A stretch of DNA of 64,000 bases from a virus: positions 62,001 to 126,000 of the IMG/VR virus record IMGVR_UViG_3300017987_000056. The stretch is one strand, 5' to 3'. Positions within the stretch are counted from its first letter, which is position 1. The number at the start of each line of letters is the position of its first letter. Made by a program: the position numbers and the translations under genes. The notes under the pieces were generated by a model. That model did not search any database. It saw only the letters and a list, made by a program, of their open reading frames with translations, and was not told the origin of the DNA. This document shows positions 27,751 through 60,908 of the stretch, piece after piece.

Positions 27751-28023
27751 ATGAGACCAGAAGCCGAAAGATTTCTGAGGTTGATCTTGGAGGACGATAC
27801 CCTCCTTCGAAAAACCTCGCAAAATCCTTTGGCCAATACCTACTGGGGTACGCTCGTTCGTGGGGCGTTGAAATCCCTGGAACAGGTAGCTAGCTGGTCG
27901 ATGGATTGGCAGTTGACTGCGATCACAAAGCTGTTACAATCCTGGGTAAGTGATCGGGAGGCAGATCAAGTAGAATCCGAAGTCGATAAATCTTACGATT
28001 ACTTGGTCGCCCCGTACTTATGA
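27751..28023 (+). CDS. Hypothetical protein, 90 aa
   Basis: The gene is not recognised. It is the first gene after an AT-rich gap (27700-27750) that may hold a promoter. It lacks a strong ribosome binding site. The product is predicted helical and acidic (AERFLRLILEDDTLLRKTSQ), with DREADQVESEVDKSYDYLV at the end. It overlaps the reading frame of the next gene only slightly. Confidence 0.6.
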   Translation: MRPEAERFLRLILEDDTLLRKTSQNPLANTYWGTLVRGALKSLEQVASWSMDWQLTAITKLLQSWVSDREADQVESEVDKSYDYLVAPYL

Positions 28024-28046
28024 GACGAAACATGGAGGCAAACGAA

Positions 28047-28895
28047 ATGCGACGTTCCGAAAATCCCCGAAGAGATGCGCACCACATGTGGTCCGCCGGA
28101 AGGGGCGAGGATGGTCGAGTCCATCTTCGGCGGAGTAAGCAGGAGAAGGAAAGCTTCGAGCAGGAAAAACGTCGGGCGATGCTGAAAGCTGCAAGCAAGC
28201 GTCGTGACGAAGCCAAGCGGAAGCAGGAAGCGAAGGATACCTGCGCCGCGATGTGGGGTCTCTTCGGAGCCGACCTTGTAGACGACTCCACTTTCTCTAC
28301 GGACATCCCCGTGGCGGTGGTGCGTCGATTCAATGCGTCTGACCGCAGGGAGCAGTCTCCCCGCGTTCCGAGCTGGGAAGAGCTGCGCAGAGCTTACGGA
28401 TCCGAAACCGTGCAAGAGATTCGTCAGTCGGTTGCAGACGGCATCCGGACGAGAAGCGCTTCAAAGTATTTGAACCTTCCCTTCATCATGACGAAGGACG
28501 TTCTCAACACCTGTAAGGATGTTCCCCCCGCTGTGCTGCGAGAGACGGTAGATCTCGTGAAGCTGGGACGGGTCCGGGAAGCCTTTCTGAAACATGGGGG
28601 AATCGCGCAGAAGGTCTCGAAAGTTTTCCGCGATTTCGCGGACGCCAGTTCGAGAAAAATCGCGGTGGACGAGGCAGCCAAATCGTACTACGAAGAGTAC
28701 TACGGGCTGTACGGCCAAGATCTCGTTCAGGACGTGAAAAAGCGCGTCAAGGCGGATATGGCGGGTGCCTGGATGAGGAAGAACGGAGTGGACGATGTAG
28801 CTGCGGCTTATTGGGAAAATTACTATGGGGCATACGGCTCTGCTTGGGTGTCTGTAGTACCCGCCAAGCTCTCCCCTTCCAACGTCCGGAAGTAA
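28047..28895 (+). CDS. Hypothetical protein with repeated YYxxYG motif, 282 aa
   Basis: The ATG at 28047 follows GGAGG by 8 bp; an ATG at 28020 in frame is the alternative. The N-terminus is very basic and helical (RRSKQEKESFEQEKRRAM). The C-terminal half carries a repeated aromatic motif, AKSYYEEYYGLYGQDLV and AAYWENYYGAYGSAWV. A related copy, AKEYWQGYAGEYGKQLT, lies in the 1193-aa protein near 35.37 kb. The shared motif suggests a common partner or surface. The function is unknown. Confidence 0.65.
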   Translation: MRRSENPRRDAHHMWSAGRGEDGRVHLRRSKQEKESFEQEKRRAMLKAASKRRDEAKRKQEAKDTCAAMWGLFGADLVDDSTFSTDIPVAVVRRFNASDRREQSPRVPSWEELRRAYGSETVQEIRQSVADGIRTRSASKYLNLPFIMTKDVLNTCKDVPPAVLRETVDLVKLGRVREAFLKHGGIAQKVSKVFRDFADASSRKIAVDEAAKSYYEEYYGLYGQDLVQDVKKRVKADMAGAWMRKNGVDDVAAAYWENYYGAYGSAWVSVVPAKLSPSNVRK

Positions 28896-29303: not shown

Positions 29304-31673
29304 ATGAATAGATTCGGGCGTAACGTCAAACAGGACCTCGCGGATTTTTCCCAGCAATCTGTCGGTGATCTTCGAGTCGGCAGGCTTGCGAAACTCTACT
29401 CGGGAGCCGTCGCTCGCCGTCAAGCTCAAGATGAGGCGAATTCCCGGGAGTTCCGGTTGAATATTCCCCATGTCGAGCAGGTTCGGAAGAAGATCGCCGA
29501 GGAGCTTGATCGAGAAGCGGGGCAGATCAACGGAAATCTTCCCGTAGCTTCCGTCTTCGACGCCTATCGAATCGTGAAGGCGCGCAAGGACCTCGGGACT
29601 GATCACGGTCTTCGGGCTTTGTACGGTCATCTGGAGGGGATGTGGAAGAAGAACCGCACCGGGTCCATTACTGCCAGCTCCTACCTCACGCTCCACGATC
29701 ACTACAAACGGAACTTCCCCAAGTCGGCGGCGGCGGAGGTGATCGTCGAAATCGGTCAGAAAGGTTACGCGACTCTCCCGATCAACGACCTCCAGCGCAT
29801 CGCCTCTCAGATCGAAACTCAGGAAGACTACGACCGTCTGATCCTAAAGCACGGTTTGAACGGTCCTCTCCCACATCAGGTAAAGGCTCGCCGGTTTGTT
29901 CTTTCAATGGTAAACGGGGAAGAGCCTGACCTGGAATATGGCGAGGAGACTGCCGACTGGGTGCAGAAGAAGATCAAGCACGAGGTCGGGGGTGGTGATT
30001 CCGGGGAGTTCCGTAAGGAGAATCCTCCCCCCAAGCGCAAGCGTCAAGGTCCGAATGCTCGTCGAGGGGGTGGGAAGCGCCCTTTTTACCGTAGGGACGC
30101 TCAGGCGTCCGGCAATGAACCGGGCGTCAAGTACATTCAGACTCCGCGAGGACCTGCAACGGTGCAGCAGGATGCGCCATTCGCGAAAACACCGGAAGAA
30201 ACATTTTCGGATCCTTCACAGAGATGGTTAAGTCCCGAAGAAGAGCGTGCGATGAGCGGGGCACCCGAATGGGCTACTTGGAATCCTCTTGAGGATTACT
30301 TCCCTTCGGATCCTTTAGGGGAAGATCCTGCGCTCAACATGCGTCCGGGTGAAGCAATGGGAGATCTCCTCGGTCTCGAACCAGATCCCTCCCTTCCCCC
30401 TCGACCTCAGTCTCAGCAGCAAGCTGAAAAAGAATCTCTCCACGAAGTCAAGAAACCCAAGCGCGGACCTGGTCAGGTAGGAAAAGGTAAAGCGCAGGCG
30501 GGTCCTGAAGCTGGTCCTGGTCATGGCGGGATGGGTTCTGGAGCGGTTGCTCGTCGCCAAGCTCAGGGAGACGATTTTGAGCCCGACGAAGATGATGTTT
30601 TCATCCAGTCCGCTTCATATCTTGGGGGCGAAGATGTCTACTTCGCAGGAAAGCATCTTGGAGAGTTTGTCGAGTGGGATGGCATTGAAGATGCCATTCG
30701 AGAAGAGGGGAACCGTCAACAGTATTGGCCAAATATTTGGCACGTTTCCGATCACGGGAACTTCCACCTCGTCGAGGATTTCGATTGGGACAAGCCCTCC
30801 CGCGAAGAGGAACCCCCCGAGGGTGAGCTTTGGGGTCCTGCTTGGAGGGGATCTCGTCGTCAAGCTCAAGAAGAAGAAATCAAGCCAGATCGGGGGCTTG
30901 CGGAAGATCTTCTCAAATGGCACGGAGGGCAAGGATCTGCACTCTATGCGCTGGGATCTAACTGGTCCGCAGGGCATCCGGTAGAAAAAGACGTAATCGA
31001 AGCCGCGCATGAGGAGCTTGAGGACGCGGTTAGATGGTACGAGGTGAATATCAAGCAACCTGACGTAGTCGCGGATGAATCAAAGAAAAGGGAATACCGG
31101 GAAGCTCTGGATGAAGGTACGGAGCTTTTGTGGGATTTGAAGGATGTGTTAAACCTTCTCGGAACTCCTGGACACGAGGCTCGTCGTCAAGCTCAAGCGG
31201 GTGAACCGGATCCTACTATTGTCGAAGCGATGGCTCGCGCCTTCTTTGTCTCTTCGTGGGCAGACGAATGGGAGGAGGCTGACCGCCTTGCCGATGAAGT
31301 GGATGTCGAAATCGAGTCCCCGAACTTCATGGGGGCCGAGTTGATGAACATTGCCCCGGAGACTCCACCCGAAGCTATCGAATTTGCAACCAACTTCTAC
31401 CGAGATATCGAGCGCTCCAACAACGTCGACCTGGAAACCTTCATTCCTCCTGGTGAGGATGAGGACTTCAACCGCGACGAGTTCGGTCACTACCTCGCGA
31501 TGGAGGGAATGGGTCACGGAGTAGGGTGGTACGACAGTCACGAGCATCACGGGTTGGAAATCCCACATACTGCGGGAATGGAGACGGAGTTGGCCTACGC
31601 GGGAGACCCTGAGCTGCTCGAAATTCTGAACGACCTTGCCGAAATGCGCGAGGAAGAGGGGTTGGAAAGATGA
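29304..31673 (+). CDS. Large multidomain protein with ARRQAQ linkers, 789 aa
   Basis: This is the first of the long acidic proteins. Its helical N-terminal part (about 45-230) is followed by low-complexity segments. At least five basic linkers divide it: ARRQAQ at residue 37, RRDAQ (30090-30104), ARRQAQ (30549-30566), SRRQAQ (30852-30869) and ARRQAQ (31179-31196). The last two share an exact 18-bp DNA core. Segments after each linker (about 80-160 aa) look like separate acidic domains, one ending in a His-rich patch (YDSHEHHGLEIPH). GAGGAG precedes the ATG. It resembles polyvalent or processed internal virion proteins in style; no enzyme domain is recognised. Confidence 0.7.
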   Translation: MNRFGRNVKQDLADFSQQSVGDLRVGRLAKLYSGAVARRQAQDEANSREFRLNIPHVEQVRKKIAEELDREAGQINGNLPVASVFDAYRIVKARKDLGTDHGLRALYGHLEGMWKKNRTGSITASSYLTLHDHYKRNFPKSAAAEVIVEIGQKGYATLPINDLQRIASQIETQEDYDRLILKHGLNGPLPHQVKARRFVLSMVNGEEPDLEYGEETADWVQKKIKHEVGGGDSGEFRKENPPPKRKRQGPNARRGGGKRPFYRRDAQASGNEPGVKYIQTPRGPATVQQDAPFAKTPEETFSDPSQRWLSPEEERAMSGAPEWATWNPLEDYFPSDPLGEDPALNMRPGEAMGDLLGLEPDPSLPPRPQSQQQAEKESLHEVKKPKRGPGQVGKGKAQAGPEAGPGHGGMGSGAVARRQAQGDDFEPDEDDVFIQSASYLGGEDVYFAGKHLGEFVEWDGIEDAIREEGNRQQYWPNIWHVSDHGNFHLVEDFDWDKPSREEEPPEGELWGPAWRGSRRQAQEEEIKPDRGLAEDLLKWHGGQGSALYALGSNWSAGHPVEKDVIEAAHEELEDAVRWYEVNIKQPDVVADESKKREYREALDEGTELLWDLKDVLNLLGTPGHEARRQAQAGEPDPTIVEAMARAFFVSSWADEWEEADRLADEVDVEIESPNFMGAELMNIAPETPPEAIEFATNFYRDIERSNNVDLETFIPPGEDEDFNRDEFGHYLAMEGMGHGVGWYDSHEHHGLEIPHTAGMETELAYAGDPELLEILNDLAEMREEEGLER

Positions 31674-32731
31674 GACAAGTACTCCCTGACGAAGCATTGA
31701 AGAGGATCTCCAAGAACGTCAAAGCTCAGGAAGGCAAGAGTGACAAACCTGACATTATCGCCAATCTCGGAGATGTGAACTTCATTGACTACGGCGGTCT
31801 CTTGATTGTCCAGACCCAGTACGGTCCCGAAGGCTGGTACGTCGAGAACGATCTGGACTGGAATCCAGATGCGGAGAACGAGTACCAAGCCACCTGGACC
31901 ATCTCTCGATTTGACATCGAGAAGTTCGCGGAGATCGACGGTTATCTAGTTCCCGACGTTGCCTTGACATTTAATCGAGGAGTTTCCCGCTTTGATGAAC
32001 CTTTCTGGGCGAAGGATTTGGAAGGGGTTGCCGATAGTGTAGGGTCTTCTAAAGAAGAACTCGTAAACGAATTGAAGTCGGACGACCCTGCCGAACGTGG
32101 GCAGGCTTATCGAGATCTTATTTGGTACTTCGGACCTTTCGAGTTCGACCAATACCCACTCACTCTCAATTACAAAGAGGTTCACGAACTCTTTGGAGAA
32201 GAGTACGACACGGACTGGGACAAACCCGAGGAAGAAGAGTTCGAGGACGACGAAGAGGACTTCGGACGTGAGGGTCGGAGAAAGAAAGCCAACCTTGACG
32301 CTCTCCTCAGCCAGTATCCAGTCAAGGACATCGTCGATCAAGACGTTTTCTACCCCCAAGATGCTGATTCCCCCGTCTCCGTAGTTGGGGTTTATGACGG
32401 CGACGAGATGGAGGCGGACTCCTACGTCGTCATTACGGGACGGGGTATCGATCACGGTCTTGAAAAGGCTCATGACGCTTTCTTCAATGACAAACTTTCC
32501 GAAGAGTTGGACGAAGGTCTCTGGAACGAAATCAGGGAAGAGTTCGGTCCCGACGCAGATCAATACCAGATTGAAGAAGCTTATATGAACGCGATTACCG
32601 AAGGGTGGCAATACTGGTCTGAAGAGTTTGATACACTTGAGGATTTTGTTCAAACTCTGAGAGCGTCCGAGCATCCTGAAGCGAAGCTGTGGTTGAGGGG
32701 TTTCGAGGACGACGAAGAGGATTTCGAATAA
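31670..32731 (+). CDS. Acidic two-domain hypothetical protein, 353 aa
   Basis: The ATG overlaps the previous stop (ATGA). Two domains are separated by an acidic-to-basic junction: EEFEDDEEDFGREG followed by RRKKANLDALL near residue 200. A near copy of the acidic part (FEDDEEDFE) forms the extreme C-terminus, which suggests a missing or lost third module. The N-terminal domain is beta-rich (GGLLIVQTQYGPEGWYVEND). The function is unknown. Confidence 0.65.
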   Translation: MRQVLPDEALKRISKNVKAQEGKSDKPDIIANLGDVNFIDYGGLLIVQTQYGPEGWYVENDLDWNPDAENEYQATWTISRFDIEKFAEIDGYLVPDVALTFNRGVSRFDEPFWAKDLEGVADSVGSSKEELVNELKSDDPAERGQAYRDLIWYFGPFEFDQYPLTLNYKEVHELFGEEYDTDWDKPEEEEFEDDEEDFGREGRRKKANLDALLSQYPVKDIVDQDVFYPQDADSPVSVVGVYDGDEMEADSYVVITGRGIDHGLEKAHDAFFNDKLSEELDEGLWNEIREEFGPDADQYQIEEAYMNAITEGWQYWSEEFDTLEDFVQTLRASEHPEAKLWLRGFEDDEEDFE

Positions 32732-32772
32732 AAACTAAAAACCTTTTTCACAAAGGAAGGTCGAGGAATAAA

Positions 32773-35700
32773 ATGGCAAAGGAATTGAATCCGAGGCAGG
32801 TAAAGAGCGCACTCTTTGACGGTCAGACTGTCGAGAATCCTGGCGGCTGGTTGATGCGAATCAACGACAACGACGATGTAGAGATCTGGCCACCCGAGGG
32901 CGATGGCTTCGCCACCCATATTGGCCGACTCGATGAGGAGGTGCGCCGGTTCTGCAAGGAAGCCGACATGCCCATCCCGGGTGTGAACGAGACGCAAGGA
33001 CCTTCTCAGAGCCTTCCTTCGCCTGCCGAAGTTCTCGAAAAGGATACCTCGACCAAGGAATATCCAAAGTACAATCCGACCGTGAACGAGACTCCGAAGG
33101 GGACGGATTCGAAGGGTACTTCGACCTCGAACCCACGGCTCGGTCCAGATACTTCGGATCGAAATCCTCGAAACTTCGACCCGGCCATCAACAAGCGTCC
33201 TCGACAGGACGAAGGACGTGGCGGTCTTCCGGACACGAGTCTCGGGAAGGATACCGGTGGCGCGGATACAAACTGGGGTGATCGAAGGATGCGGAACGAA
33301 AAGGATGCTCGTCGCCGAGCCGAATCGGGAATTCATTGGTCGGAATTAGAAGTATACGACGATGAATCCAACTACATAGGGACTTTAGGGGACCTAGTCG
33401 AGAATGCTCCCGAAAATTTGGATAATGTCGTAATCGAAAACGGAAAAATCTCGGAGTGGTCTGATTATTTCATCGCCGCTCCTGGAGAGAATCCCGATTG
33501 GGATACTCCAAAAGGTCCGGTAGATTGGACGTCCTTTGAGAATCGACTTCGTTCATACCCGGGTAAGGGTTCTCGTCGCCGTGCCGAAGACGGCGGTAAA
33601 GACCCCTTCAAGGTCAAGGTCCAGGAGGAGCCTGGCAAGAACCTGAACAAGGGCGAGACTCCCTCGGATCCGTCGAAGGTCATCGACCAGGAGAAGGGTG
33701 AGGGCAAGGATCTGCGAGATGAGAAGGAAGGTCGTCGCAGGGCGATGGACGAAGAGGAGGTCGCTCGTGGGATGCAGGAAAAAGGTTACAACTACATCTT
33801 ACTGATCCCTGGTATAGAACCTTTGTATACCAAGACGATGCAGCACGCTGCTGAGTTGATGCGTACTGACTACAAAGACGTTTCCGGCATTCAGCCGATG
33901 CTCATTTCCAAGTTTTTAGGGGAAGAGCGGGAAGGTTCCAAGATCGTCGACTCCTTCGACTCACCCCCCGATGCTTCCCATATCTACCGGGAAATGAAAC
34001 GGGCACGTCCGAGCGAGCAGCTTCTCCGGGACATCATGGATCCGGACAAGTGGGCTGCGAACAACGTGTTCCTGCCGACCGAGAAGACTCAGCGCCACGC
34101 TCGCCGTGCGATGGATGAAGCCGGTGGCAACACCGAGGCCAAGGTTCCGAAGAAGTGGGAGAAGACGGTCAAGGAGATGAAGGGAGATCCCGAGATCGAC
34201 AACCCATGGGCGTTGGCCAACTGGATGGAGGGCGAGGGCTACACTCCGGGTGGCAAAGACAAGAAGAAAAAGTCCGAGTTGATTGCTTCCATCTTGCGCG
34301 GTGATCTGGATGTCACTGACGACTTCATTAAGATTGCTTCGCGGCTCGTTGCGGAAGTTGATGAGTTCAAGCTCGACGATCTTAAAGACTTCGCTTGGAT
34401 GCTCGTCGGGAACGGGGATTTGAAGCCTGGCGCGATCAACTGGAAGGTCGCTGGCCCCAAGCTTCGCGAGAAGTGGTCTCCCGAGGGCGGCTACGGTCGC
34501 GACATTGAGGCCGAGTCCGCCGAGGAGCTTCACGCCCTGACGATGGCGTTTGGCGGGGAGGAGGTGGACTGGAGCCCTTTTCGCCCAGCTCAACCCGAGG
34601 AAGGGAGCGAACCGACCGGCTCGGGTGAGGTAGAAGGTCAGGCTCCGATGGAGCAAGCTCCTGCCGTTCAGGCTCGGAAGCAGGCCGCGTTCATGGAGCC
34701 TTTCGTTGAACATGGTGAGTGGGTTGAGGTAGATGGTCCGATGGGTGGTGAATCTGTTTCGGCTGAGTATGTCGATGGAGAAGAGATCGAAGAGTTGAAA
34801 CGGGAGATCGAGAAAGATGGGAGGGCGAGCGTCGAGGGGACTTCCCTTCGAGACTATCTGGAGAATAGCGAGATTCACGATATCGAGCTTCGTCAAGGTT
34901 ACGGCGCTTACATGTCCGCTCCTGGCTATATGGATCGAACTGATTTGTCTGTTTTCGATACAGAAGAGGATGCGTTGGACTACCTTTTCGAAATGTACAT
35001 GACAGATGGAGCTGACGAACTTCTCGAAGAATACGAGGAGTACCGTGAGGAGTACGAAGAGTACGTTAAGCGACAAGGCTGGGATAAGGAATCTCGCCAA
35101 GCCGCAGCCGGGTGCCCAAGCTCCAAGAAGGAAGAGTCCGCTGGCGGCGAGATGGAAGCATCAGAGATTACTCATAGATACGATAAAGATCTCGGTCGCA
35201 TGGTTCAGATTGTTTCTCCTGAAAGATTGCGTCGTATTCTGGACGAGGAAGGTTCCGACTACGATCCTCCAAGTGACTTTGGTCCGGAGGATGAATGGGA
35301 AGTTCGTGAAAACAATAAAGTAGGTAGGTATGGCAATTCTGCTGGCGGCGAGATGGAAGCGGTCGACGAATCCGCCAAGGAGTACTGGCAGGGCTACGCG
35401 GGCGAGTACGGGAAGCAGCTCACCGAGGATGGGGATGTCACCAAGCCGAAGCCGGAGAAGAAGCTTCCCAAGGGCAAAGGTGAAGGGAAGATGCGGGGGA
35501 AAGGCAAAGGCCCGATGGGTATTCCAAAGGGACTGAAGGGAAAAGCCGGTCGCAAGAAGCGCCGCGAGGCATGGATCCGCGCCAAGCGCGAGGCCCAAGC
35601 CGCCGCTCCGATGGCCCAACCGGCTGCTCCCGCACCGGCGCCTACCGCTCCGGCTCCCGGACCTGCTCCTGCGGCTCCTCCAGCCGCTCCTGGTGCTCCG

Positions 35701-36354
35701 AAGGCTCCCGGCGCTACAGGAGCCCCCAAGGCCCCCGGAATGTCTCCGGGAACGGGAGACGAGGGTCTCCAGGCTCTCGGGTGGACTCCCGAGGACATCT
35801 CGCTGATGGATGACGAGGACAAGAAGAAGGTCCTCGAAATCAAGCTCAACAAGCCCGGGACCAAGAAGAAAGGTCCCGAGAAACAGATGCCAGGTGCCCC
35901 GAAGGCTCCGGGGCCTGCTCCAGCCACGCCCGGCCCATCGGCTCCGGGGCCTGGGGTACCGGCTCCTGCCGCGCCTACGGGACCTGCGGTGTCGCCCCCG
36001 GTCGCCAAGCGGATGGCGCTCCTGATCCAGAAAAAGATCGACAAGCGCCGGGCGCAGATGGCCCCGGCAGCTCCCGCAGCTCCAGAGACTCCCGCGCTAA
36101 CCCAACCTGCGGCCCCGATGCCTGAGTTCGGGGAGGGGATGCCGAAGGAGATGCCCGCCGAGCAGCAGGCGTTTCAGATTCTGGCAGAAGTTCAGTCGAT
36201 GCCGGTGAACGCTACGAGCCCGGAGCAAGTAACCACGCAGAAGGTGGCCGAGCTATCCCGTCGTCTGCTCCTGGAGCTGGGGCTCAATCTGTCGGACGCC
36301 CGCAAGCTGTTCGGTCTTCCGCAGAACAAATCGATGTCGGCCCTTTTTGAATAA
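32773..36354 (+). CDS. Giant linker-type multidomain protein, 1193 aa
   Basis: The ATG at 32773 follows GAGGAATAAA. The protein alternates folded segments with low-complexity stretches and carries basic linkers: ARRRAE (33307-33324), SRRRAE (33571-33588), GRRRAM (33731-33748), ARRAM (34099-34113), ARKQA (34672-34686) and AKREAQ (35581-35598). SAGGEMEA occurs twice, encoded by an identical 20-bp DNA repeat. The region near 35.37 kb has a YWxxYxGEYG motif shared with the 28.0-kb gene. The last 250 residues are Ala/Pro-rich (APGPAPAAPPAAPGAPKAPG) with a final helical domain. A virion-associated or polyvalent protein is inferred. Confidence 0.7.
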   Translation: MAKELNPRQVKSALFDGQTVENPGGWLMRINDNDDVEIWPPEGDGFATHIGRLDEEVRRFCKEADMPIPGVNETQGPSQSLPSPAEVLEKDTSTKEYPKYNPTVNETPKGTDSKGTSTSNPRLGPDTSDRNPRNFDPAINKRPRQDEGRGGLPDTSLGKDTGGADTNWGDRRMRNEKDARRRAESGIHWSELEVYDDESNYIGTLGDLVENAPENLDNVVIENGKISEWSDYFIAAPGENPDWDTPKGPVDWTSFENRLRSYPGKGSRRRAEDGGKDPFKVKVQEEPGKNLNKGETPSDPSKVIDQEKGEGKDLRDEKEGRRRAMDEEEVARGMQEKGYNYILLIPGIEPLYTKTMQHAAELMRTDYKDVSGIQPMLISKFLGEEREGSKIVDSFDSPPDASHIYREMKRARPSEQLLRDIMDPDKWAANNVFLPTEKTQRHARRAMDEAGGNTEAKVPKKWEKTVKEMKGDPEIDNPWALANWMEGEGYTPGGKDKKKKSELIASILRGDLDVTDDFIKIASRLVAEVDEFKLDDLKDFAWMLVGNGDLKPGAINWKVAGPKLREKWSPEGGYGRDIEAESAEELHALTMAFGGEEVDWSPFRPAQPEEGSEPTGSGEVEGQAPMEQAPAVQARKQAAFMEPFVEHGEWVEVDGPMGGESVSAEYVDGEEIEELKREIEKDGRASVEGTSLRDYLENSEIHDIELRQGYGAYMSAPGYMDRTDLSVFDTEEDALDYLFEMYMTDGADELLEEYEEYREEYEEYVKRQGWDKESRQAAAGCPSSKKEESAGGEMEASEITHRYDKDLGRMVQIVSPERLRRILDEEGSDYDPPSDFGPEDEWEVRENNKVGRYGNSAGGEMEAVDESAKEYWQGYAGEYGKQLTEDGDVTKPKPEKKLPKGKGEGKMRGKGKGPMGIPKGLKGKAGRKKRREAWIRAKREAQAAAPMAQPAAPAPAPTAPAPGPAPAAPPAAPGAPKAPGATGAPKAPGMSPGTGDEGLQALGWTPEDISLMDDEDKKKVLEIKLNKPGTKKKGPEKQMPGAPKAPGPAPATPGPSAPGPGVPAPAAPTGPAVSPPVAKRMALLIQKKIDKRRAQMAPAAPAAPETPALTQPAAPMPEFGEGMPKEMPAEQQAFQILAEVQSMPVNATSPEQVTTQKVAELSRRLLLELGLNLSDARKLFGLPQNKSMSALFE
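35140..35159 (+). repeat. 20-bp direct repeat, copy 1 (encodes AGGEMEA)
   Basis: The run from GCTGGCGG to GATGGAAGC is identical to 35341-35360. Both copies are in the same frame of the 1193-aa gene and are separated by about 200 bp that encode one module. Confidence 0.8.
35341..35360 (+). repeat. 20-bp direct repeat, copy 2 (encodes AGGEMEA)
   Basis: An exact copy of 35140-35159. A diverged third version (AAGGEVN) is encoded near 40378 in the 956-aa gene. Confidence 0.8.
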
Positions 36355-36366
36355 AAGGAGAGATTC

Positions 36367-36771
36367 ATGACTGAAAAATTCGTAGTTTTCAACCCGGGTC
36401 AAGGTTCGGTGAGCTTCACGCTCTATCCGAAAGTGGACCTTCCCGACGAAATGTCTCGGCACAAGAAACGCAGATTGCTACGTTCCTCTGCGATTCCGGT
36501 GGTGGTGACGAAGCAGTCCTCGGTGGATCTGGTTGAGCTTACGGGAATGAGCGTGGCGGACCTGAAGGAGCAGCCTGAGCTGCTGCATATGCTCCATTCG
36601 AGGGTGCCTAAGCTCTTTGAGAAGAAGGATTCCGAGGAGAAGCCGAAGAAGGCCGAGAAGAAAGCAGCCTCTCCGGAACCCGAGCCGGAGACGGAGCCTG
36701 CGCCGAAAGAGGAACCCGAGCCTCCAAAAGAGAAGAAGTCCAAGAAAACGAGGAAGACTCGGAAGAAGTAA
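36367..36771 (+). CDS. Hypothetical protein with Lys/Glu/Pro-rich tail, 134 aa
   Basis: AAAAGGAGAG precedes the ATG. The first 80 residues are a compact domain (VVFNPGQGSVSFTLYP, SVADLKEQPELLHML) and the last 55 are low complexity (EPEPETEPAPKEEPEPPKEK) ending in a lysine/arginine run. The stop overlaps the next ATG (TAATG). It is not recognised; the tail suggests an interaction protein. Confidence 0.65.
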   Translation: MTEKFVVFNPGQGSVSFTLYPKVDLPDEMSRHKKRRLLRSSAIPVVVTKQSSVDLVELTGMSVADLKEQPELLHMLHSRVPKLFEKKDSEEKPKKAEKKAASPEPEPETEPAPKEEPEPPKEKKSKKTRKTRKK

Positions 36772-37343
36772 TGCTGGTCAAGTTGCACGCACGGCAGTTC
36801 GAAGAGGACTACGGCCTCCTGATCAACTGGGACGGGCCGCCGCATGTCCACATGTTCGAAGCCGGAGTTGTGCGACTGACGGATGATCTCAAACCTGTTC
36901 CGGTAACCCACGTCACCGCGATGTGGCTGGACAAATCGATCAAAGTTCATTGCGATGTCGCCGATACCCTCGAAAAGAAGAGAGTCGGCTTGCAAAACTA
37001 CGATTGTCTGCCGGAGGATTGCGGTCTGTACTTCCCCTATCCGGGATATCACGATGTCGTGTTCCATCAAGGATCCGTGAAGTTCCCCCTAGACCTGTTG
37101 TTCCTGAAAGATAGCGTTGTTTCCAAAGTCCAGAGAAATACTCAGGTCAACTCGAAGGAGAGGTGGGGCTGCCGAAATTGCGATGGAGTGATCGAAGTCA
37201 ATGGCGGATTTTGCGATCTGAATGAAGTGAGCCCCGGAGACAAAATCGCCATTTTCGCTTTTTCCGAAATCGACGACCGAAATTTAGAGCATGAACGAAG
37301 GTCCGACAACATCGTTCGCGCATTGATCGAGGATGAGCTTTGA
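36771..37343 (+). CDS. DUF192-family protein
   Basis: Residues 60-170 follow the DUF192 pattern: the 'ER.GL' start (LEKKRVGLQNYDCLPEDCGL), FPYPGYHDVVFHQGSVKF, the conserved PLDLLFL segment, then GVIEVNGGF and the final GDKI. Members are small beta-barrels of unknown function, often exported in bacteria; this one has no signal peptide. A CRNCDG pair is an addition. An N-terminal 60-residue domain precedes it. The stop overlaps the next ATG (TGATG). Confidence 0.65.
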   Translation: MLVKLHARQFEEDYGLLINWDGPPHVHMFEAGVVRLTDDLKPVPVTHVTAMWLDKSIKVHCDVADTLEKKRVGLQNYDCLPEDCGLYFPYPGYHDVVFHQGSVKFPLDLLFLKDSVVSKVQRNTQVNSKERWGCRNCDGVIEVNGGFCDLNEVSPGDKIAIFAFSEIDDRNLEHERRSDNIVRALIEDEL

Positions 37344-37690
37344 TGTCGAGCTTGGTTCAAATTCCCGAGGTTCTGTACCCGTATCGTTTGTTTTGTTCCG
37401 GAGCTACGTTTTCGGTGTTGTGCGAGCATAAGACAATCGACGAGCTGTGGGCCGATATTCGATCCGGGAATGACGAGATTCCGTTTTGGAATCCCAAGAA
37501 ATCGGGCGGTTATGCAAACATAAGAGTAAAATCCAGCTTGATTATCGGAGTGGACAATCCGTTTGGCTCGGAGCCGGTACAAACGACTCGGGACCAACAA
37601 AGACAGAACGACAAAGATCGGAGACGTAAGATTAGAAATCCGGCTCCTTCTCCGATGACTCAACCCATACCTAGACAAAGTCCGAGGTAA
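37343..37690 (+). CDS. Hypothetical protein, 115 aa
   Basis: The gene is not recognised. The ATG is in a TGATG junction. A compact N-terminal domain (VLYPYRLFCSGATFSVLCEH, IDELWADIRSG) is followed by a basic Pro/Gln/Arg-rich tail (DQQRQNDKDRRRKIRN). It is coupled to the DUF192 gene. Confidence 0.6.
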   Translation: MSSLVQIPEVLYPYRLFCSGATFSVLCEHKTIDELWADIRSGNDEIPFWNPKKSGGYANIRVKSSLIIGVDNPFGSEPVQTTRDQQRQNDKDRRRKIRNPAPSPMTQPIPRQSPR

Positions 37691-37693
37691 TCG

Positions 37694-40564
37694 ATGCCGA
37701 CTTTTGAGGAACTGAAGAAAAAAAAGCACGTTGCCGAACATCCTCTGTTCGACGATTACGACAGGCGCATGGCCGCAATGCGGCAGAAGATGACGAAGAC
37801 TTCGGAGAAAGTCGATCTCGATGACATCTTTTCCAAGGTCAAGCAGGTCGGTATGAAGTCTGGAGTGCGGGATCTGAACGCCTACATTCAGGAAGCTGCG
37901 ATTGCCACGCAGGAAGTGGTGAACGTCCTCGACTGGCCGTTGGTGCCGAGGGTCGAGTTCCGCCAAGCCCGCAAGCTCAAGTACGCCAGGCACGACGAAT
38001 CCCAGCTCGTCTCTGGTGAGCTGCTCTTCAATCTCCGCTTTGCGACGACTTCAGGTGCTGTTAGGAATGCGACGATTTTTGTGCCCGTAGTATCCGGAGC
38101 AGTGGTTCCCCCCTCGACGATGATGTTCGAGGATCGACTGTACGTTCTCGGACAAGGGGCTATCGACGAGATCATCCGTCGCAATAGCTCGTACTTTCTG
38201 GATCCCCTTCGGAGGCAATACCAAGCCCCGAACCAAGGGGAGGAACTCGACATCGCGGTAGAGCGACGAAACGAAATGGGTTATCAACCTCGGCGCGTTC
38301 CGATGGACGAAAACTACAACCGGAGGACCTACCGGAGAAAAGAGGAGCAACTCTTTCCCATGATGGGGCAGGAGCCTGGTGGTGTTCCTTACGAGATCGG
38401 GGATCTCGTTCAGTACGAGGTGAGCCCGGGCGAGTTCACGACCGCCATCGTCACCGAACGTCACCCCGAGCTGTGGGGCGGCAAGCCCGGTTTTTCGGGG
38501 ATCGATCCCGCGACGGGCATGGAGACCTCCGGGTTCGAGGAATCGATTGTCGAGGTGGTTGAGAAGGGAAAGGGAGTTCAGAGGTCTGCTCAGATCAACA
38601 CCGACATTTCGGAGCCCCCTTCGGACGAGGAGAGTCCCGAGGTTACGCCGACACACCTCATGTACCCGAACACCAAAACTCCCATTGAAGCGGGAGACTC
38701 GGTGAAGTTCAACGGTCTCGATGGTTCCATCCGAGGAAAGATTGTCGAGTTGGACCCGGACGCGAACACGATGATTGTCAATGCCAAGGGAATGGAATAC
38801 CGGGTGACGGTAGATGATATCGAGCCGCTTCCGAGGACCTTCAAGAAGATGTGGGCTAAGAGGGAAGCTCAAGAAACTCGCGTCCTCTCTCCCGAGCAGG
38901 GCGGTCGTCCTGACGTAGCTACGGATCCCACGATGGTGCAGCAGACGGACATCTATGCACCGACAGAACAAACCCAACCTCAGTACGGAGCCGCCACTCC
39001 CACTGCGGATATGTACAACCAGGTAGTCCAGCAACCTGAGATGTTGAGTTACATCGAAGCTTCTCTTGCTCCTCCGACCTTCGAGGAGCAGGTCTCGATG
39101 GTCTATGATGCCGTGCGACCTCTTTCGATGCAAATCTACCCGGACCAGGAAATCGACTGGCATCAGTTGACTCAGGATCTCGTGACCTACGTGGGTCAGT
39201 CCGGAATGCAGACGGCAACGGGTCGTAAGCTCGCGGCGAGAATCATCGCTGAGTACGTAACTGGCGTTAGAAAAGCAGGTGATAAAATGGATAAAAAAGC
39301 TCAGCAGTTCGATCCCTTCGACCCCACTTCGAAGCGTGAACCCGAGCTTCAGAAGTTCACTCCGCCCGGTTATGATCTGGTTCTCGGGGACATGGTCCAG
39401 GCCGAGGAGGAAGGTCTCGACACGTTCCCGCGTTCCTACGCGCACGTCGAGAAAAACTACATCCTGAAGAGGCTCTCCACTTGCTCGTCGCATCACTGGA
39501 TGGTCCACCTGACAAACGATGGGTTCATCATCAATCCTTACGGCAGCAACCGAGGACGGATGCGCCCGGGGACGGAGAGGATCGCCTCGAAGAAAGTAGG
39601 TAAGTACGTGCTTAAAAGAAATGAAGACGGCATGTATGTGTCTCGTCCCGGTTCTTTAAGTTCTTATACTAATGATCGAGGTCAAGCGGCGGAATATGAC
39701 TCACTTGAAGAGGCTCAAAGAAATGCTTGCGGGAACGAAAGTATTTTCGAATCCTTTGGTAGGGAGACTTTGGTTAGCGGAGGCGCGGTAGGGGAAGCGG
39801 AAGAAGGATGGGAAGTGGAAAGCGCCTCGAAGAAGAAGGCTCAAGAAGAGCAGAAGATGATGGATCTTCGTATCTACCTGATGGACGATACGGAATACTG
39901 GACTTCTCTTCCTAAAGGCATCAAGAAGGTCTACAGCGGTTACCTGTTCGATGCAAATCTCGGCGTTCACGTCGCAGAGTTAACTCCGTCTGCCGAACTG
40001 CATCTGATCGATACTGTCCCTGTTTTCGAGGATTTTGTCTACGAGGACGACGAGCTTCGGGAACAACTGTACGACTACATTATGGAAGGTGCTGCGGATA
40101 CGGAACCGGTGACTTACGTACACCTCAAGTCCGCCATAGCGAACTCGCATCCTTACGATGAGGTGCCACGCCCTGAAGATGAGGAGGAGCAGCAGGAAAT
40201 CTTCGAAGATGCTTTGGAGTCTCTTCGAGGCAATCAAGGTGTTTGGGAGCAGTTTATTTATGAAGAAAAGAGCGCCTCGAAGAAGGGGGATAAGCGCCCT
40301 TTTGATCGACGGGGGGCTCAGGTATCGGAAGACGAAATGGTCCAGCAGTACATCGAGCGTGCGGAATCCGAGCGTGCTGCTGGCGGTGAAGTGAATTACG
40401 ATCCGAGTCTCCCTTCAATCGACATCAAGCTCAGCAACGGCGAGGAGTACCATTTCCGGGAGTGGAGCGCGGACGAGCTGTTGAAAGAGCTTCCTCACTT
40501 CATCGCAAAGGGGTCAAAGGCGCTCATCGAGGACGTTCTTCTCGCGATAGCGCAGAACTGGTAG
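37694..40564 (+). CDS. Linker-type multidomain protein, 956 aa
   Basis: The N-terminal 220 residues form a structured domain (NLRFATTSGAVRNATIFVPV, GQGAIDEIIRRNSSYFLDP) that resembles, loosely, virion proteins of large phages. Later come a small beta-barrel-like region (VQYEVSPGEFTTAIVTERHP; IEAGDSVKFNGLDGSIRGKI) and several modules. The junctions carry AKREAQ (38855-38872), KKAQ (39293-39304), KKKAQ (39830-39844) and RRGAQ (40307-40321). SASKK repeats precede the last two. The start is an ATG 4 bp after the previous stop. A virion or polyvalent role is inferred. Confidence 0.7.
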   Translation: MPTFEELKKKKHVAEHPLFDDYDRRMAAMRQKMTKTSEKVDLDDIFSKVKQVGMKSGVRDLNAYIQEAAIATQEVVNVLDWPLVPRVEFRQARKLKYARHDESQLVSGELLFNLRFATTSGAVRNATIFVPVVSGAVVPPSTMMFEDRLYVLGQGAIDEIIRRNSSYFLDPLRRQYQAPNQGEELDIAVERRNEMGYQPRRVPMDENYNRRTYRRKEEQLFPMMGQEPGGVPYEIGDLVQYEVSPGEFTTAIVTERHPELWGGKPGFSGIDPATGMETSGFEESIVEVVEKGKGVQRSAQINTDISEPPSDEESPEVTPTHLMYPNTKTPIEAGDSVKFNGLDGSIRGKIVELDPDANTMIVNAKGMEYRVTVDDIEPLPRTFKKMWAKREAQETRVLSPEQGGRPDVATDPTMVQQTDIYAPTEQTQPQYGAATPTADMYNQVVQQPEMLSYIEASLAPPTFEEQVSMVYDAVRPLSMQIYPDQEIDWHQLTQDLVTYVGQSGMQTATGRKLAARIIAEYVTGVRKAGDKMDKKAQQFDPFDPTSKREPELQKFTPPGYDLVLGDMVQAEEEGLDTFPRSYAHVEKNYILKRLSTCSSHHWMVHLTNDGFIINPYGSNRGRMRPGTERIASKKVGKYVLKRNEDGMYVSRPGSLSSYTNDRGQAAEYDSLEEAQRNACGNESIFESFGRETLVSGGAVGEAEEGWEVESASKKKAQEEQKMMDLRIYLMDDTEYWTSLPKGIKKVYSGYLFDANLGVHVAELTPSAELHLIDTVPVFEDFVYEDDELREQLYDYIMEGAADTEPVTYVHLKSAIANSHPYDEVPRPEDEEEQQEIFEDALESLRGNQGVWEQFIYEEKSASKKGDKRPFDRRGAQVSEDEMVQQYIERAESERAAGGEVNYDPSLPSIDIKLSNGEEYHFREWSADELLKELPHFIAKGSKALIEDVLLAIAQNW

Positions 40565-40566
40565 AG

Positions 40567-42189
40567 ATGGGACAGGACACTTACACCACGCTTATCCGGG
40601 GTTACGACGTGACGGTTTCACCGTCCGATGTCCCGGATTCTTATCACGTCAATGTGTCCGAGCACGGAAGCTTAGGATGGGAGACGGATGTTCCCGTTGA
40701 TCTTGATAATTTACAAGGGGAGAATGAAGAGCTTGACGGCTCCGACGCTCTTTTGAACTACGTGAGTAACGCAGCCGTGGATCTTTACGAGTCCGAAAAA
40801 GGCACTTTAGGTCAAGGAGCTGCTGCGGAGGTACAGGCGATGCGGAAAAAAGGTTATTTCGATTCGATGCAGTGGGAGGACTGGTTCATGTCGTTCAAAG
40901 GCACTCAGTTCGAAGAGGAAGCCGCTGCGATGCTCCAGACCTACTTCGAGTTGGGGATGCAGGAGACTGAGAACCAACCGATCAACGATCTGTACCGCCA
41001 AAAAGACAAGATCATGTACGACCTCGACATGCTCAATCTGGAGCGGATGAAAGCCACCTCCTCCGAAGCCGCTGCGGTCATCGTGATCTCAGCCAAAAAG
41101 AAGAAAGCGTTTTGGGGTTGGTGCGACATCGAGGACTACCTTGCTCGATTCGTCGGGGATCCGCTCGAACCTCAAGCGATTGCCAAGATTCGTGAGCTGC
41201 TCGATCTCGAAGATGCCATCGACGAAGCCCAAATGAACTCAGATGATAGCTGGATGAAGCGCGAGAGGCTCGAAACCCAGATGCACGAGCTGACTCTGAC
41301 GTGCCTCCAGCAGAACGTGGTCGAGCCGACCGGGATGGACGCGGCTCCGAACATGGCTGCGGATCTGGCGAGCCTGATGGAGGGTGTCGATCTCTCCACA
41401 CCGTTGGAGCCCATCGTCTCTTTCACTGTTGAGCGCCACGCAAACTTGGATCCGAAGCTCGTCCGCCGTCGCCTCCGGGCTCAGTTCTGGTCTTACACCC
41501 CTTCTGACGAGGAAAGCACAACCAAGGATGACGTGACCTACTACCTCATGCAGAAGGGTTACGACGAGGGCATGGCGGGGAACGCCGTCGCTGCGTACTG
41601 GGCAGGCGATACTCTGGATGCGCAGACCACGATGGACATCCAGGAGGCTCTGGAGGCCGTTCAGTTCGGTTTCGTCGCCAAGAAGCTCGGACAGCAACAG
41701 AGCTGGTCGTTCGATTGGGGCGAGGAGGACACGAAGCTCTCCGTCATCGATGCTTTAATGGCTGCTGGCTACGACGAGATGACCGCCTCGCAGCTCGTCG
41801 ATGCGTATTGGGCGAACCAGACCCTCGATGCCGAGTCCACGATGGCGATTCAGCAGGCCCTTCAATCCGTGCAGGGAGGTCAGGTTGCGGCTTCGAAAAA
41901 AGCTTTCGAGGAAGCAGAGACCGCCGAGGAGCGCATTGAGGAATTGGGGGAGAACGTTGAGCACGAAGCTTTTCCTACGCAGAGCTTTAACCAGAACGAG
42001 AAAGTGAAAACGAAGCGCGAGCTGAAAGTTCCTTTCGGATGGGGCGGTACCAAAACAATTCCGAAAGGAACGATAGGGTATGCTGAAAGTCTCCTTGATC
42101 GGTGGGGAAACCGCTATCTCGTGCGCCTCGAAGATGATCTTACTTTGATCAAAGTTCGGTGGGATGAGATTGAAGTAGCTGCTCGCTGA
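40567..42189 (+). CDS. Protein with tandem UBA-like repeats and basic junctions, 540 aa
   Basis: The ATG at 40567 directly follows the previous stop. Two tandem copies of about 45 residues are clear: GYDEGMAGNAVAAYWAGDTL (from about 41555) and GYDEMTASQLVDAYWANQTL (from about 41768). They are followed by the matching tails TTMDIQEALEAVQ and STMAIQQALQSVQ. The pattern resembles UBA/CUE-like three-helix modules but is unproven. Junctions SAKKKKAFWGW, FVAKKLGQ and AASKKAFEEAE continue the linker theme. The last 70 residues are beta-rich. The function is unknown. Confidence 0.65.
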   Translation: MGQDTYTTLIRGYDVTVSPSDVPDSYHVNVSEHGSLGWETDVPVDLDNLQGENEELDGSDALLNYVSNAAVDLYESEKGTLGQGAAAEVQAMRKKGYFDSMQWEDWFMSFKGTQFEEEAAAMLQTYFELGMQETENQPINDLYRQKDKIMYDLDMLNLERMKATSSEAAAVIVISAKKKKAFWGWCDIEDYLARFVGDPLEPQAIAKIRELLDLEDAIDEAQMNSDDSWMKRERLETQMHELTLTCLQQNVVEPTGMDAAPNMAADLASLMEGVDLSTPLEPIVSFTVERHANLDPKLVRRRLRAQFWSYTPSDEESTTKDDVTYYLMQKGYDEGMAGNAVAAYWAGDTLDAQTTMDIQEALEAVQFGFVAKKLGQQQSWSFDWGEEDTKLSVIDALMAAGYDEMTASQLVDAYWANQTLDAESTMAIQQALQSVQGGQVAASKKAFEEAETAEERIEELGENVEHEAFPTQSFNQNEKVKTKRELKVPFGWGGTKTIPKGTIGYAESLLDRWGNRYLVRLEDDLTLIKVRWDEIEVAAR

Positions 42190-43363: not shown

Positions 43364-43381
43364 TGTCTTATGGAGGGCAAG

Positions 43382-46040: not shown

Positions 46041-46634
46041 GTGAAACTCAAGAACTCAACAGACTTCCCTGACTGGTTCCTGCGACGGATGATCGGCTGG
46101 ATCTGTCGGCAGAAGCCAATCGGCTGGAAGGTCAAGCACATCGAAGAGGCGGCTTTTCGGAAAGTTCGTCAAGACTCTCATACCCGAGTAAACGGAGTGG
46201 CGGAGCCTTGGTTTCGGAAGTTCCGAGTCTCGATCTCTGATAGTGTTTTTCCGTGGAGTTGGGGCGGGGCGACCGTGGGCGCGATGGGGAGGATCAAGTC
46301 CCTCGTCGATGTCACCGCTCACGAGATCGCTCATTTGACTCAATCTCGGGAGGTTCTTAAGGGGCGCTACAGGGAGGGGGACGCTGATCACATGGCCAAG
46401 CAGGTTGTGGAACTCTTCGATGCTCAGAAAGGCCCCCTCGTCGCTCAGTGGATGAAGGCTCCGAGTTACGCCACCCGCGAGCCCAAGCCTAAGACTCCCG
46501 TTCAGCAGGTCCGCGCCGACCGAGCCCGGAAGAATCTCACCAACTGGGAGAAGAAGCTCAAATACGCTCAGAACAAGGTCAAGAAGTACAAGAAGCAGGT
46601 GAAGTACTACGACACGGCCCTGTCCTCTGAGTAA
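46041..46634 (+). CDS. Zincin-like protein with HEIAH motif, 197 aa
   Basis: HEIAH (94-98) with a downstream acidic segment (YREGDADHMAKQV) is the minimal zinc-metallopeptidase pattern, as in SprT- and WLM-like proteins. The N-terminal half is Trp-rich, and the last 60 residues are lysine-rich (KNLTNWEKKLKYAQNKVKKY). GGGGGTTGCG precedes the GTG. Zincins occur in phage polyvalent proteins and may process viral or host proteins; that role is inference. A stem-loop terminator follows. Confidence 0.65.
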   Translation: MKLKNSTDFPDWFLRRMIGWICRQKPIGWKVKHIEEAAFRKVRQDSHTRVNGVAEPWFRKFRVSISDSVFPWSWGGATVGAMGRIKSLVDVTAHEIAHLTQSREVLKGRYREGDADHMAKQVVELFDAQKGPLVAQWMKAPSYATREPKPKTPVQQVRADRARKNLTNWEKKLKYAQNKVKKYKKQVKYYDTALSSE

Positions 46635-47531: not shown

Positions 47532-48332
47532 ATGAAACGATTGTTATTCCTTTTTTTCCTACTTTCGATTGCCGTCTGCATCGGCGCTCAGGCAAATGAC
47601 TTGGAGGAGGCTTCCGCGTCCCCGGAGTTGATCACTTCCGTCGACAAGACATCCGAAGAATCTAAAACCATCGAACCGGAGCCAACGCTGTATGATCGTT
47701 TTGTTGCCGGGATCCTGAAGTCGAGAAGTGTGAAAGTCGAAAAACAAAAAGGGGAGCGCTACAGAAAGCCCTATTGGTTTGAGTGCGGTAAGCGTGTGTT
47801 GGAAGATGAACGTGAGGAGCGAGCGGGCGAGTGGGCCACTGCGGTTTTGGACGCCGTCGATTCGGCAAAAGAGGAGTTCGGCGTGAAGATCAATCCGTGG
47901 GGAGTTCTAGCAACCGTCCACAAAGAAGGTGGCTTCGACATGTGCGCTCTCGACAAAGATTCTCGAATATTTGGATGGCACGTAGGTGCTGTGAAAAAGT
48001 ACAAAATGTCCTATTCAAAGAAAGAGATACGAAAGATTATTGTCAAAATCCAAAAAGTATCAAAGAGATGGAGGTTCGATGCGGGACCGCTCCAGGTGCG
48101 CAGATCGGCAAAAAAGACTTTGCAGAATCTGGACGACATCCTTTCCCTCAATCCCGGGGTCCACAAGGGGGTGCATGAGATGGCGAATCGAGCGATCCAA
48201 TTTCCGAAAGCACGTCAACGTCCCTGGAAGCTCTGGCCGACCACGGACCCATCCTCAGAGAAATCTCGGAAGTACGACAAGCATATCAGAGGCATTGCAA
48301 GATTCCTCGGAGCCCGGATTGACGAAATTTGA
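47532..48332 (+). CDS. Secreted lysozyme/transglycosylase-like protein, 266 aa
   Basis: A signal peptide (MKRLLFLFFLLSIAVCIGAQ) implies export. The later domain resembles an SLT-like lysozyme fold: NPWGVLATVHKEGGFDMC carries the candidate catalytic Glu, and RFDAGPLQVRRS matches the 'G.mQv' element. GAAGGAG precedes the ATG. The 89-bp upstream gap has a small TACAG/CTGTA hairpin. It could act on peptidoglycan during lysis or entry; it is separate from the lysozyme-like gene at 14.0 kb. Confidence 0.65.
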   Translation: MKRLLFLFFLLSIAVCIGAQANDLEEASASPELITSVDKTSEESKTIEPEPTLYDRFVAGILKSRSVKVEKQKGERYRKPYWFECGKRVLEDEREERAGEWATAVLDAVDSAKEEFGVKINPWGVLATVHKEGGFDMCALDKDSRIFGWHVGAVKKYKMSYSKKEIRKIIVKIQKVSKRWRFDAGPLQVRRSAKKTLQNLDDILSLNPGVHKGVHEMANRAIQFPKARQRPWKLWPTTDPSSEKSRKYDKHIRGIARFLGARIDEI

Positions 48333-48391
48333 ACACCAATTTTAAGAATCCCAACCGCCGTGTAATAAACTGTGCTCCAGGATTGAATCAC

Positions 48392-49573
48392 ATGGAGCTT
48401 TATTCACAACCATCTCGCACGGCTTCCCGGATTCGAAGGCGACCTCGACGGTCCACGGCGGCGCTATCGGAGATATTCCACCGTTATTCTCAGGAGTTAA
48501 CCACTTCCGTAATGGACCCGTCCCAGCTCCAAGTCGGCCAACCTCTCTACGACAACACCGGGAAGGAGTTCCTTGTCGTAGAGAACGAGCCCGAAAAGGG
48601 GAACACTGTGTTGATGCCTGCGGATCAACAGGGCGCGCAAGTCCCCGAGGGCGTCACCTCAGTCGACGACATGTCCATCCAGACCGAGTACTCCGTGCAG
48701 CCCGCTGAGGGTGCTACGGCGGCTTGTAGCGCCGTGATCAAGAAGCTCAAGGAAGAGGACAAAGACTCTTCGAAGCCTGCCAAGGAGCAGGTCTGGGGGC
48801 TCTACACGCACGATGGAAAGAAGTTGCTTGGGAGGCATCCGAGCGAGGAAGCCGCGAGACAGCAGGAAGAAGCGATCAAGTCCAAAGGAGGACGGAGATC
48901 GGCGGGATGGGCTGATCTGGCGGATCCCTACTTCGAGCTGGGCCGCGACACGACTCAGAAGCGGGAGGATTGGCCTGATCTGAATGAATGGGAGCGCAAC
49001 CGAGAGGACGATTGGATCCGAGTTCCCGAGGGCAAGCCTCGTCGTTTTGATCCGAGTCACGAGCCCAATCAGGAGCTGAAGACCAAAGGACCGGACCTGA
49101 GCTTCAACAAGGAAGAATCTGGCATTTGGGAACAGGAGCCCGGTGCCCCCGAGGACCCTCCCCCTGTCGTTCCGTCCTTCGGTCAAAGCCAGGACATGAC
49201 AAACCTTGATCAACGCTCCAGAACGAGTATGATCGAGGATGAGAAGTGGCGAAAGCTGATTGATACTTGGATCGACATGGGACCTGGTAAGGCAAAGCGA
49301 TATCCGGGGCGTTCCACCGAGAAGCCCCGCGAAGCCTCCCACATGGACATCTCGCCTTGGATGGGTGAGGGTGACCGGGTGCAGACTCCGAAGGAAGAGG
49401 AGGCCCTCCTGCGCATCGGAGAGGATGGTTACGGCGAGATCATGCAGTCGATCCAAGCTATGGTCGACTGTGGCTACGGAACCATCGATGTGATTCTCAA
49501 CATCGGAGAACTCTATCCTCGCGACATCGGTGAGCGCGTGCTGGCCGAAGCGAGAAAGAAGGGGATTTTGTAA
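48392..49573 (+). CDS. Linker-type hypothetical protein, 393 aa
   Basis: The start is chosen at ATG 48392 because AGGA lies 9 bp upstream; a TTG at 48329 overlapping the previous stop is the alternative. The basic N-terminus (ASRIRRRPRRSTAALSEIF) and a GGRRSAGWADLADP junction near residue 168 echo the linkers of the 29-42 kb block. The rest is acidic and Pro-rich, with a small C-terminal helical domain (QAMVDCGYGTIDVILNIGEL). The function is unknown. Confidence 0.6.
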   Translation: MELYSQPSRTASRIRRRPRRSTAALSEIFHRYSQELTTSVMDPSQLQVGQPLYDNTGKEFLVVENEPEKGNTVLMPADQQGAQVPEGVTSVDDMSIQTEYSVQPAEGATAACSAVIKKLKEEDKDSSKPAKEQVWGLYTHDGKKLLGRHPSEEAARQQEEAIKSKGGRRSAGWADLADPYFELGRDTTQKREDWPDLNEWERNREDDWIRVPEGKPRRFDPSHEPNQELKTKGPDLSFNKEESGIWEQEPGAPEDPPPVVPSFGQSQDMTNLDQRSRTSMIEDEKWRKLIDTWIDMGPGKAKRYPGRSTEKPREASHMDISPWMGEGDRVQTPKEEEALLRIGEDGYGEIMQSIQAMVDCGYGTIDVILNIGELYPRDIGERVLAEARKKGIL

Positions 49574-60906: not shown

Positions 60907-60908
60907 CT

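Follow-up and report, generated by a model that had tools for sequence, protein, structure and literature searches.

We analysed a 64,000-nucleotide stretch of viral DNA (the window), which is positions 62001-126000 of the 127,888-base IMG/VR virus record IMGVR_UViG_3300017987_000056; the remainder of the record was also analysed. At 28.0-42.2 kb the window carries a block of long genes, the products of which are punctuated by a short basic linker of the form [KR][KR]xA(Q). We consider it rather probable that these genes encode modular polyproteins which are packaged in the phage head and injected, and that the prohead protease cleaves these chains, together with a set of tagged effectors, after [KR]xA. 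The block proteins would be made as modular chains, packed into the head before it is filled with DNA, and then injected into the host. During head maturation the prohead protease would cut after Ala at [KR]-[KR]-x-A↓Q (the arrow marks the proposed cut), with [KR]-x-[AS] as the minimal form, and thereby free the modules as separate small proteins. Single-module effectors (GNAT, HAD, ParB-like and others) would carry an N-terminal address tag that directs them to the prohead, comparable to the capsid-targeting sequence (CTS) of T4, and that is stripped off under the same cutting rule. Because each module would start behind such a site, modules could pass from one gene to another and still be released correctly. 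The sequence supports this proposal by the enrichment of the motif, by module exchange, by an encoded protease, by a site shared between protease and scaffold and by a shared N-terminal tag, from which we infer the presence of the proteins in the virion, their cutting and injection, and their role as effectors.

All the linker elements quoted in the initial annotation are present and concentrated at 28.0-42.2 kb, and the block begins one gene earlier than it had been drawn, at 28020. The pattern [KR][KR]xA occurs 24 times in the block, while 6.2 occurrences are expected (300 residue shuffles, maximum 13), and residue shuffles give 1.1 expected for [KR][KR]xA[QEM], which is found 15 times. The shorter [KR]xAQ is found 13 times against 2.0 expected (p<0.001, 1000 shuffles), and the reversed control QAx[KR] 5 times against 1.9. 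The density of [KR]xAQ is 2.95 per 1000 amino acids (aa) in the block and 0.43 in the remaining genome, about a seventh, and that of [KR][KR]xA outside the block is a quarter of the density within it. The block was compared with those of three 188-212-kb virus contigs (relatives G001, G008 and G011) and of Virus Rctr197k. In the homologous blocks of the three relatives [KR]xAQ is likewise enriched (9 vs 1.8, 7 vs 1.6 and 16 vs 2.5 expected; reversed pattern 4, 0 and 1), and the enrichment is weaker in Rctr197k (6 vs 2.3; reversed pattern 4). Since [KR]xAQ is enriched across the blocks and the reversed pattern mostly is not, the constant part of the element is a basic residue two positions before Ala and a Gln after it; the second basic residue is frequent and optional.

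The block features given here all lie on the plus strand. The 789-aa modular protein (29304..31673) has a conserved N-terminal domain (aa 1-240; homologue in Rctr197k, E=2e-13) followed by four modules behind linkers, namely RRDAQ at aa 263 (30090..30104, in a low-confidence or coil region of the AlphaFold model) and RRQAQ at aa 417 (30552..30566), aa 518 (30855..30869) and aa 627 (31182..31196). Read with the preceding residue, its copies are ARRQAQ at aa 38, 417 and 627 and SRRQAQ at aa 518. The modular 1221-aa open reading frame (ORF; 32773..36354), with a Pro/Ala-rich C-terminal part, carries RRRAE at aa 208 (33310..33324), where it opens an 88-aa module absent here in relatives, and at aa 296 (33574..33588), where dibasic-x-Ala stands at the orthologous place in 4/4 genomes. 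Its further linkers are RRRAM at aa 349 (33733..33747), RKQAA at aa 663 (34675..34689), KREAQ at aa 966 (35584..35598; [KR][KR]xAQ kept in 4/4 genomes) and KRRAQ at aa 1119 (36043..36057), so that its longer copies read ARRRAE, SRRRAE and AKREAQ. In the 956-aa modular protein (37694..40564) the linkers are KREAQ at aa 389 (38858..38872; AKREAQ with the preceding residue), where a homology breakpoint lies, KKKAQ at aa 713 (39830..39844) and RRGAQ at aa 872 (40307..40321). The weaker copies reported at 48.4-50.6 kb are also real: an N-terminal SRTA site at 48416 in a 414-aa protein (48329..49573), the middle part of which is missing in the G008 and G011 homologues, and KQAQ at 50305 in a 349-aa protein (49573..50622). 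Some details of the earlier description had to be changed. The four genes called long and consecutive are long and not strictly consecutive: the first two are separated by a 353-aa gene, and the 956-aa gene is preceded by three short ones. Placement at domain boundaries holds for the linkers and fails for the copies at aa 38 and 62 of the 789-aa protein, which fall in predicted helices of the conserved N-terminal domain. In the AlphaFold model of this protein (mean pLDDT 46.6) the middle is of low quality, and only two things can be read from the model: these helices, and the position of the linker at aa 627, in a gap of low pLDDT (618-640) that is flanked by helical modules. Most modules are indeed acidic, whereas the size of 60-160 aa ascribed to them did not hold, the stretches between sites spanning 24 to 365 aa.

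The same linker residues are encoded by differing synonymous codons across the copies. The exact 18-bp core CTCGTCGTCAAGCTCAAG noticed earlier in the 789-aa gene (sites at aa 518 and 627) is confirmed, and it is the sole shared word of at least 15 bp among the linkers, the next longest being 14 bp in one pair. In the 1221-aa family the motif is kept at orthologous positions with the adjoining sequence diverged: in four genomes the linker before the Pro-Ala-rich part reads KREAQ, RREAQ, RKLAQ and RREAQ, and that before a DPFKV-like stretch reads RRRAE, RRKAE, RRRAD and RRRAE. In the 414-aa family R-Y-[SA]-Q or K-Y-A-Q stands ahead of the DP[ST]QLQ domain in 4/4 genomes. Because the linker copies differ in codons, the conserved thing is, as far as sequence can tell, a protein motif and not reused DNA.

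The initial annotation had proposed comparing related phages for swaps at the linkers, and this comparison revealed exchange of modules at or near them. G001 has the last module of the 789-aa protein (aa 631-789, behind ARRQA↓Q) as a stand-alone gene of 185 aa. In G008 the opening module of the 353-aa gene (31670..32731) is embedded in a 1009-aa protein, and the site before it in this fusion is a degenerate SKKAGQ. A short LHExxKPKRGPGQ element lies in the 789-aa protein of the source phage, in the module preceding the linker at aa 417, and in the 1221-aa homologues of three relatives. A module of about 60 aa, present in two copies in the 575-aa protein (40567..42189), is found as a single copy in the G001 and G011 homologues of the 1221-aa protein. 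At aa 208-296 of the 1221-aa protein the genomes all differ, each having an insert of its own or none. Moreover, a module matching DUF7249/phrog_871 in the C-terminal part of the 349-aa protein begins directly after KQAQ.

Two modules known as separate genes share an N-terminus, and their comparison led to the tag. A profile was seeded with 12 N-termini and run iteratively through 12 genomes or contigs; about ten internal matches also pass the threshold used. It yielded 33 N-terminal matches with 24 distinct 12-mers, on otherwise unrelated proteins, while column-permuted profiles, which were not re-iterated, reached no more than 8 (median 1). The tag has the consensus M[KR]x(0-4)GI[SPT]DxG[LF]xR[IL][AS]↓[QKRG], in condensed form M[KR]xGI[SP]DxG[LF]xR[IL]A↓Q, and among the 12-mers Arg stands at P3 in 24/24 and Ala or Ser at P1 in 23/24. 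The tagged proteins include a GNAT acetyltransferase (record 22711-23070), a HAD-family protein, a possible transglutaminase and many of unknown kind; in another one a ParB_N part lies behind RRIA. Tagged genes occur in runs, five at 163.9-169.9 kb of G011, adjoining its block, and four at 43.7-46.0 kb of a further genome (G009). In the 436-aa ParB_N protein of G011 the parts are separated by RRVA↓EAQ and RRIA↓EAL, ParB_N lying in the last part (E=5e-4), and there is a weak, sub-threshold match to RNA 2'-phosphotransferase. The tag was absent from the 69 ORFs searched in phage PaBG. Within the block the 353-aa protein bears the copy VLPDEALKRIS↓K at 31679-31714. The same module can thus stand behind a tag or behind a linker, as in the G001 185-aa gene and aa 631-789 of the 789-aa protein, or in the 353-aa gene and the G008 1009-aa protein. 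Both modules have a basic-and-Ala/Ser site in front in either state, which is what release by cutting requires.

The source virus is an uncultured tailed phage and kin of Rctr197k; PaBG, Lu11, Erwinia Y3 and mycobacterial phages are more distant kin by the capsid protein and the protease. Its head genes occupy 9-18 kb in the record and follow the order portal (phrog_16240), 357-aa protein, head maturation protease, 640-aa scaffold-like protein, 255-aa protein and major capsid protein (phrog_2522, E=6e-57; NCBIfam capsid_Caudo_2, E=3e-47). In Rctr197k the block homologues are directly upstream of the terminase, portal, protease-scaffold fusion and capsid genes. The protease, between the portal and capsid genes, was recognised at 12575-13492 of the record by phrog_18299 (E=1.1e-31) and has an invariant H106 (KPH motif) and S182 (FSMG motif). 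The N-terminus of its precursor reads M-x-F-x-K-[TI]-[AS]; 14 sequences extend this far, all with Lys at P3 and 8 of them with strict [KR][KR]xA. Near its C-terminus the scaffold has an [RK][RT]xA-like site followed by an acidic-GN element; Ala is at P1 in 24/24 sequences and R/K at P4 or P3, the other surrounding residues are variable, and the strict form is seen in 19/24. Several of the contigs counted are near-identical, and the independent cases are fewer. The fusion protein of Rctr197k has KRVA ahead of its protease domain and RRQA towards the end of its scaffold part. The P3 and P1 residues of tag and linker may vary with the protease clade; contig G013 hints at K-I-A/S. The tag ends in R[IL][AS], and protease and scaffold carry [KR]x[AS] sites, the use of which as cut sites is predicted. 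Since the phage encodes a head maturation protease, and protease, scaffold and tag carry the same kind of site, proteolysis by the phage enzyme is favoured. As for the capsid protein, a possible cut at RRDA↓M (aa 105) was dropped, the site being RRDV in two relatives and near the conserved core. The PaBG capsid protein, which is homologous to that of the source phage, loses about 20% of its mass on maturation, and several PaBG virion proteins appear in several gel bands, which the authors read as multiple proteolysis sites (PMC7412058). Inspection of the PaBG capsid gene and its neighbours for the same motif gave no clear match.

We are evenly balanced on a wider proposal, namely that a lineage of uncultured phages has a complete cargo system with one rule, in which the tag would load dozens of unrelated effectors and the protease would strip the tag and also cut chains at [KR]xA↓Q, the longest of them having about seven modules, the effectors evolving as freely exchangeable cassettes delivered as separate proteins.

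Several results weigh against cutting of packaged chains by the prohead protease. The AlphaFold model of the protease (10 sequences) reached a pLDDT of 52 with no match in the PDB; its fold is unconfirmed, and the enzyme is therefore identified by its profile match, by homology and by gene order. For close relatives we found no virion proteomics. The block itself has one tag copy only and no known enzyme domain, Pfam, PHROGs and NCBIfam giving DUF7249/phrog_871 and sub-threshold matches only for its proteins, and no enzyme family. In the Rctr197k block [KR][KR]xA is not enriched (5 vs 4.9 expected), and the flanks of the motif are no more hydrophilic than those of other dibasic sites. In a blind test 31 of 146 homology breakpoints lay within 12 aa of the motif and 16.2 were expected (1.9-fold, significant), and control basic patterns gave a similar or higher factor, because the linkers are basic in general; the test thus supports basic linkers at boundaries, not this motif specifically. 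Finally, copies probably lie in folded cores as well, such as RIKRTAQ in the portal, RVRKLAQ in the capsid protein and LRRLAN in the scaffold. As some copies are in such cores (aa 38 and 62 of the 789-aa protein, and probably these), the motif alone must be insufficient.

The breakpoint result, together with the generally basic linkers and the ordinary hydrophobicity around the sites, is what one would expect if the linkers were flexible basic spacers in intact multidomain proteins, balancing the acidic modules with nothing being cut. A spacer, however, does not need a fixed Ala followed by Gln, and the same site ends the N-terminal tag and sits near the ends of protease and scaffold, where there is no domain to space; we regard this explanation as rather unlikely, though the strongest of the alternatives. 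Less probable still is a role of the motif in loading alone, the proteins being brought into the prohead by its binding to scaffold, portal or protease and the motif staying uncleaved. A tag common to the N-termini of unrelated proteins is expected of a loading signal, and YWxxYxGxYG-like repeats are also common to block proteins; but repetition between the modules of one chain suits release better than loading, and the minimal rule is the same in protease and scaffold.

Cutting after injection by a host protease, an enzyme named as an alternative in the initial annotation, would release the modules in the cell, and domain release in the host is proposed for polyvalent proteins in the part of that work consulted (PMC5512222). 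This alternative leaves the same kind of site in the phage prohead protease and scaffold unexplained, and we hold it to be very improbable. The other half of the earlier interpretation, modular assembly by recombination at reused linker DNA, can point to the one exact 18-bp repeat and to the fact that modules do move between genes. It is unsupported by the remaining copies, which differ in synonymous codons and have words of at most 14 bp in common, and by the residues kept at orthologous linkers; being largely refuted by the codon diversity, it retains hardly any probability. Cleavage by a protease is the half of that interpretation which we favour.

The cutting rule of T4 gp21 is Glu-directed, whereas the rule proposed here is [KR]xA. 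The Glu-directed motif (xxE) of gp21 and gp245 does not fit the shared sites, which have Ala or Ser at the proposed P1 and a basic P3. The T4 internal proteins and Alt, with their CTS and gp21, resemble the present case in having a short conserved N-terminal tag on diverse proteins, but the tag sequence is another one and here there are many internal sites per chain. In T4 the prohead protease removes the tag, as propeptides of 10-20 residues (PMC3012670; PMC5694885). In SPN3US/phiKZ-type phages gp245 cuts after A-X-E, several sites per precursor being possible, and the identified cuts all yield N-terminal propeptides, save its own C-terminal propeptide (PMC10052503). The ejection proteins of these phages are large head cargo cut by the morphogenetic protease, as is proposed for the block proteins; here, in contrast, the stretches on either side of a site look like mature modules, and Ala is the proposed P1. 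The Dar proteins of phage P1 (DarA, DarB, DdrB) are head-packaged defence proteins; according to the portion of the source consulted, packaging of DarB needs no more than its N-terminal 30 residues and DarA is believed to be processed (PMC9024508), and a tag on more than 20 proteins and a repeated linker are not described there. Polyvalent proteins (Iyer et al. 2017, PMC5512222) are long, multidomain and injected, with swappable domains, much as is proposed for the block proteins. In the part of that account consulted, autoproteolysis by their own metallopeptidase domains is proposed and a shared linker site is not described, and the window proteins differ in lacking a recognised effector domain except DUF7249. 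A 2176-aa polyvalent-like protein of Rctr197k (L029:6754-13281), between terminase and portal, has a GNAT domain and a weak HAD-like part and is punctuated by KRTA, RRMA, KRKA, RRVA and RRTA. The mechanism proposed here is modelled on T4, P1 and SPN3US; what is new relative to known packaged-protein systems is the proposed cutting rule, the tag and the repeated sites between mature-looking modules.

The first gene of the block encodes a 291-aa protein (28020..28895) that contains two YWxxYxGxYG-like repeats and, at 28068, an N-terminal RRDA↓HHMWSA site, the counterparts of which in relatives are RVA↓HHLWAA and RRA↓HHMWSA. A repeated element, approximately AxxYWxxYxGxYGxxL, is common to this protein, the 1221-aa protein and Rctr197k (L090:35420-38389), and is possibly a second loading signal. 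The 1221-aa ORF was called from a GTG at 32689; the true starts of this and the 575-aa ORF are probably 32773 (ATG) and 40567. The 956-aa protein as a single query had no match in the viral collection, its first 200 aa none among phage records, and the block N-terminal domain none in bacterial genomes. Elsewhere in the record, the gene after the capsid gene (record 17648-18478, L001) encodes an N-terminal RRXRR domain (Pfam E=4.5e-8) followed by a phrog_17686 domain. The portals of three relatives contain inteins with LAGLIDADG endonuclease domains (L083:6398-10789, minus strand; L079:3745-8031, plus; L066:8000-11143, minus) and are 1464, 1429 and 1048 aa long, compared with 612 aa in the source phage. 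In addition, the window contains a tmRNA gene (60569-60907, plus strand; tag peptide AEEQLQEAA), two genes for SNF2-type helicases (2261-4069 and 43370-45757) and, at 46041-46634, a SprT-like metallopeptidase, judged by eye (TAHEIAHL) with no Pfam match. Two CRISPR arrays are annotated in the record of Rctr197k (L093:30804-32318 and 39282-39536).

A sequence rule of this kind would name the head cargo of large uncultured phages from their genomes, including proteins without known relatives. It links modular phage proteins to the capsid maturation protease and would explain how long chains of domains are packed and injected. Furthermore, the tag is a candidate for loading foreign proteins into capsids, as has been tried with the tags of T4 and P1.

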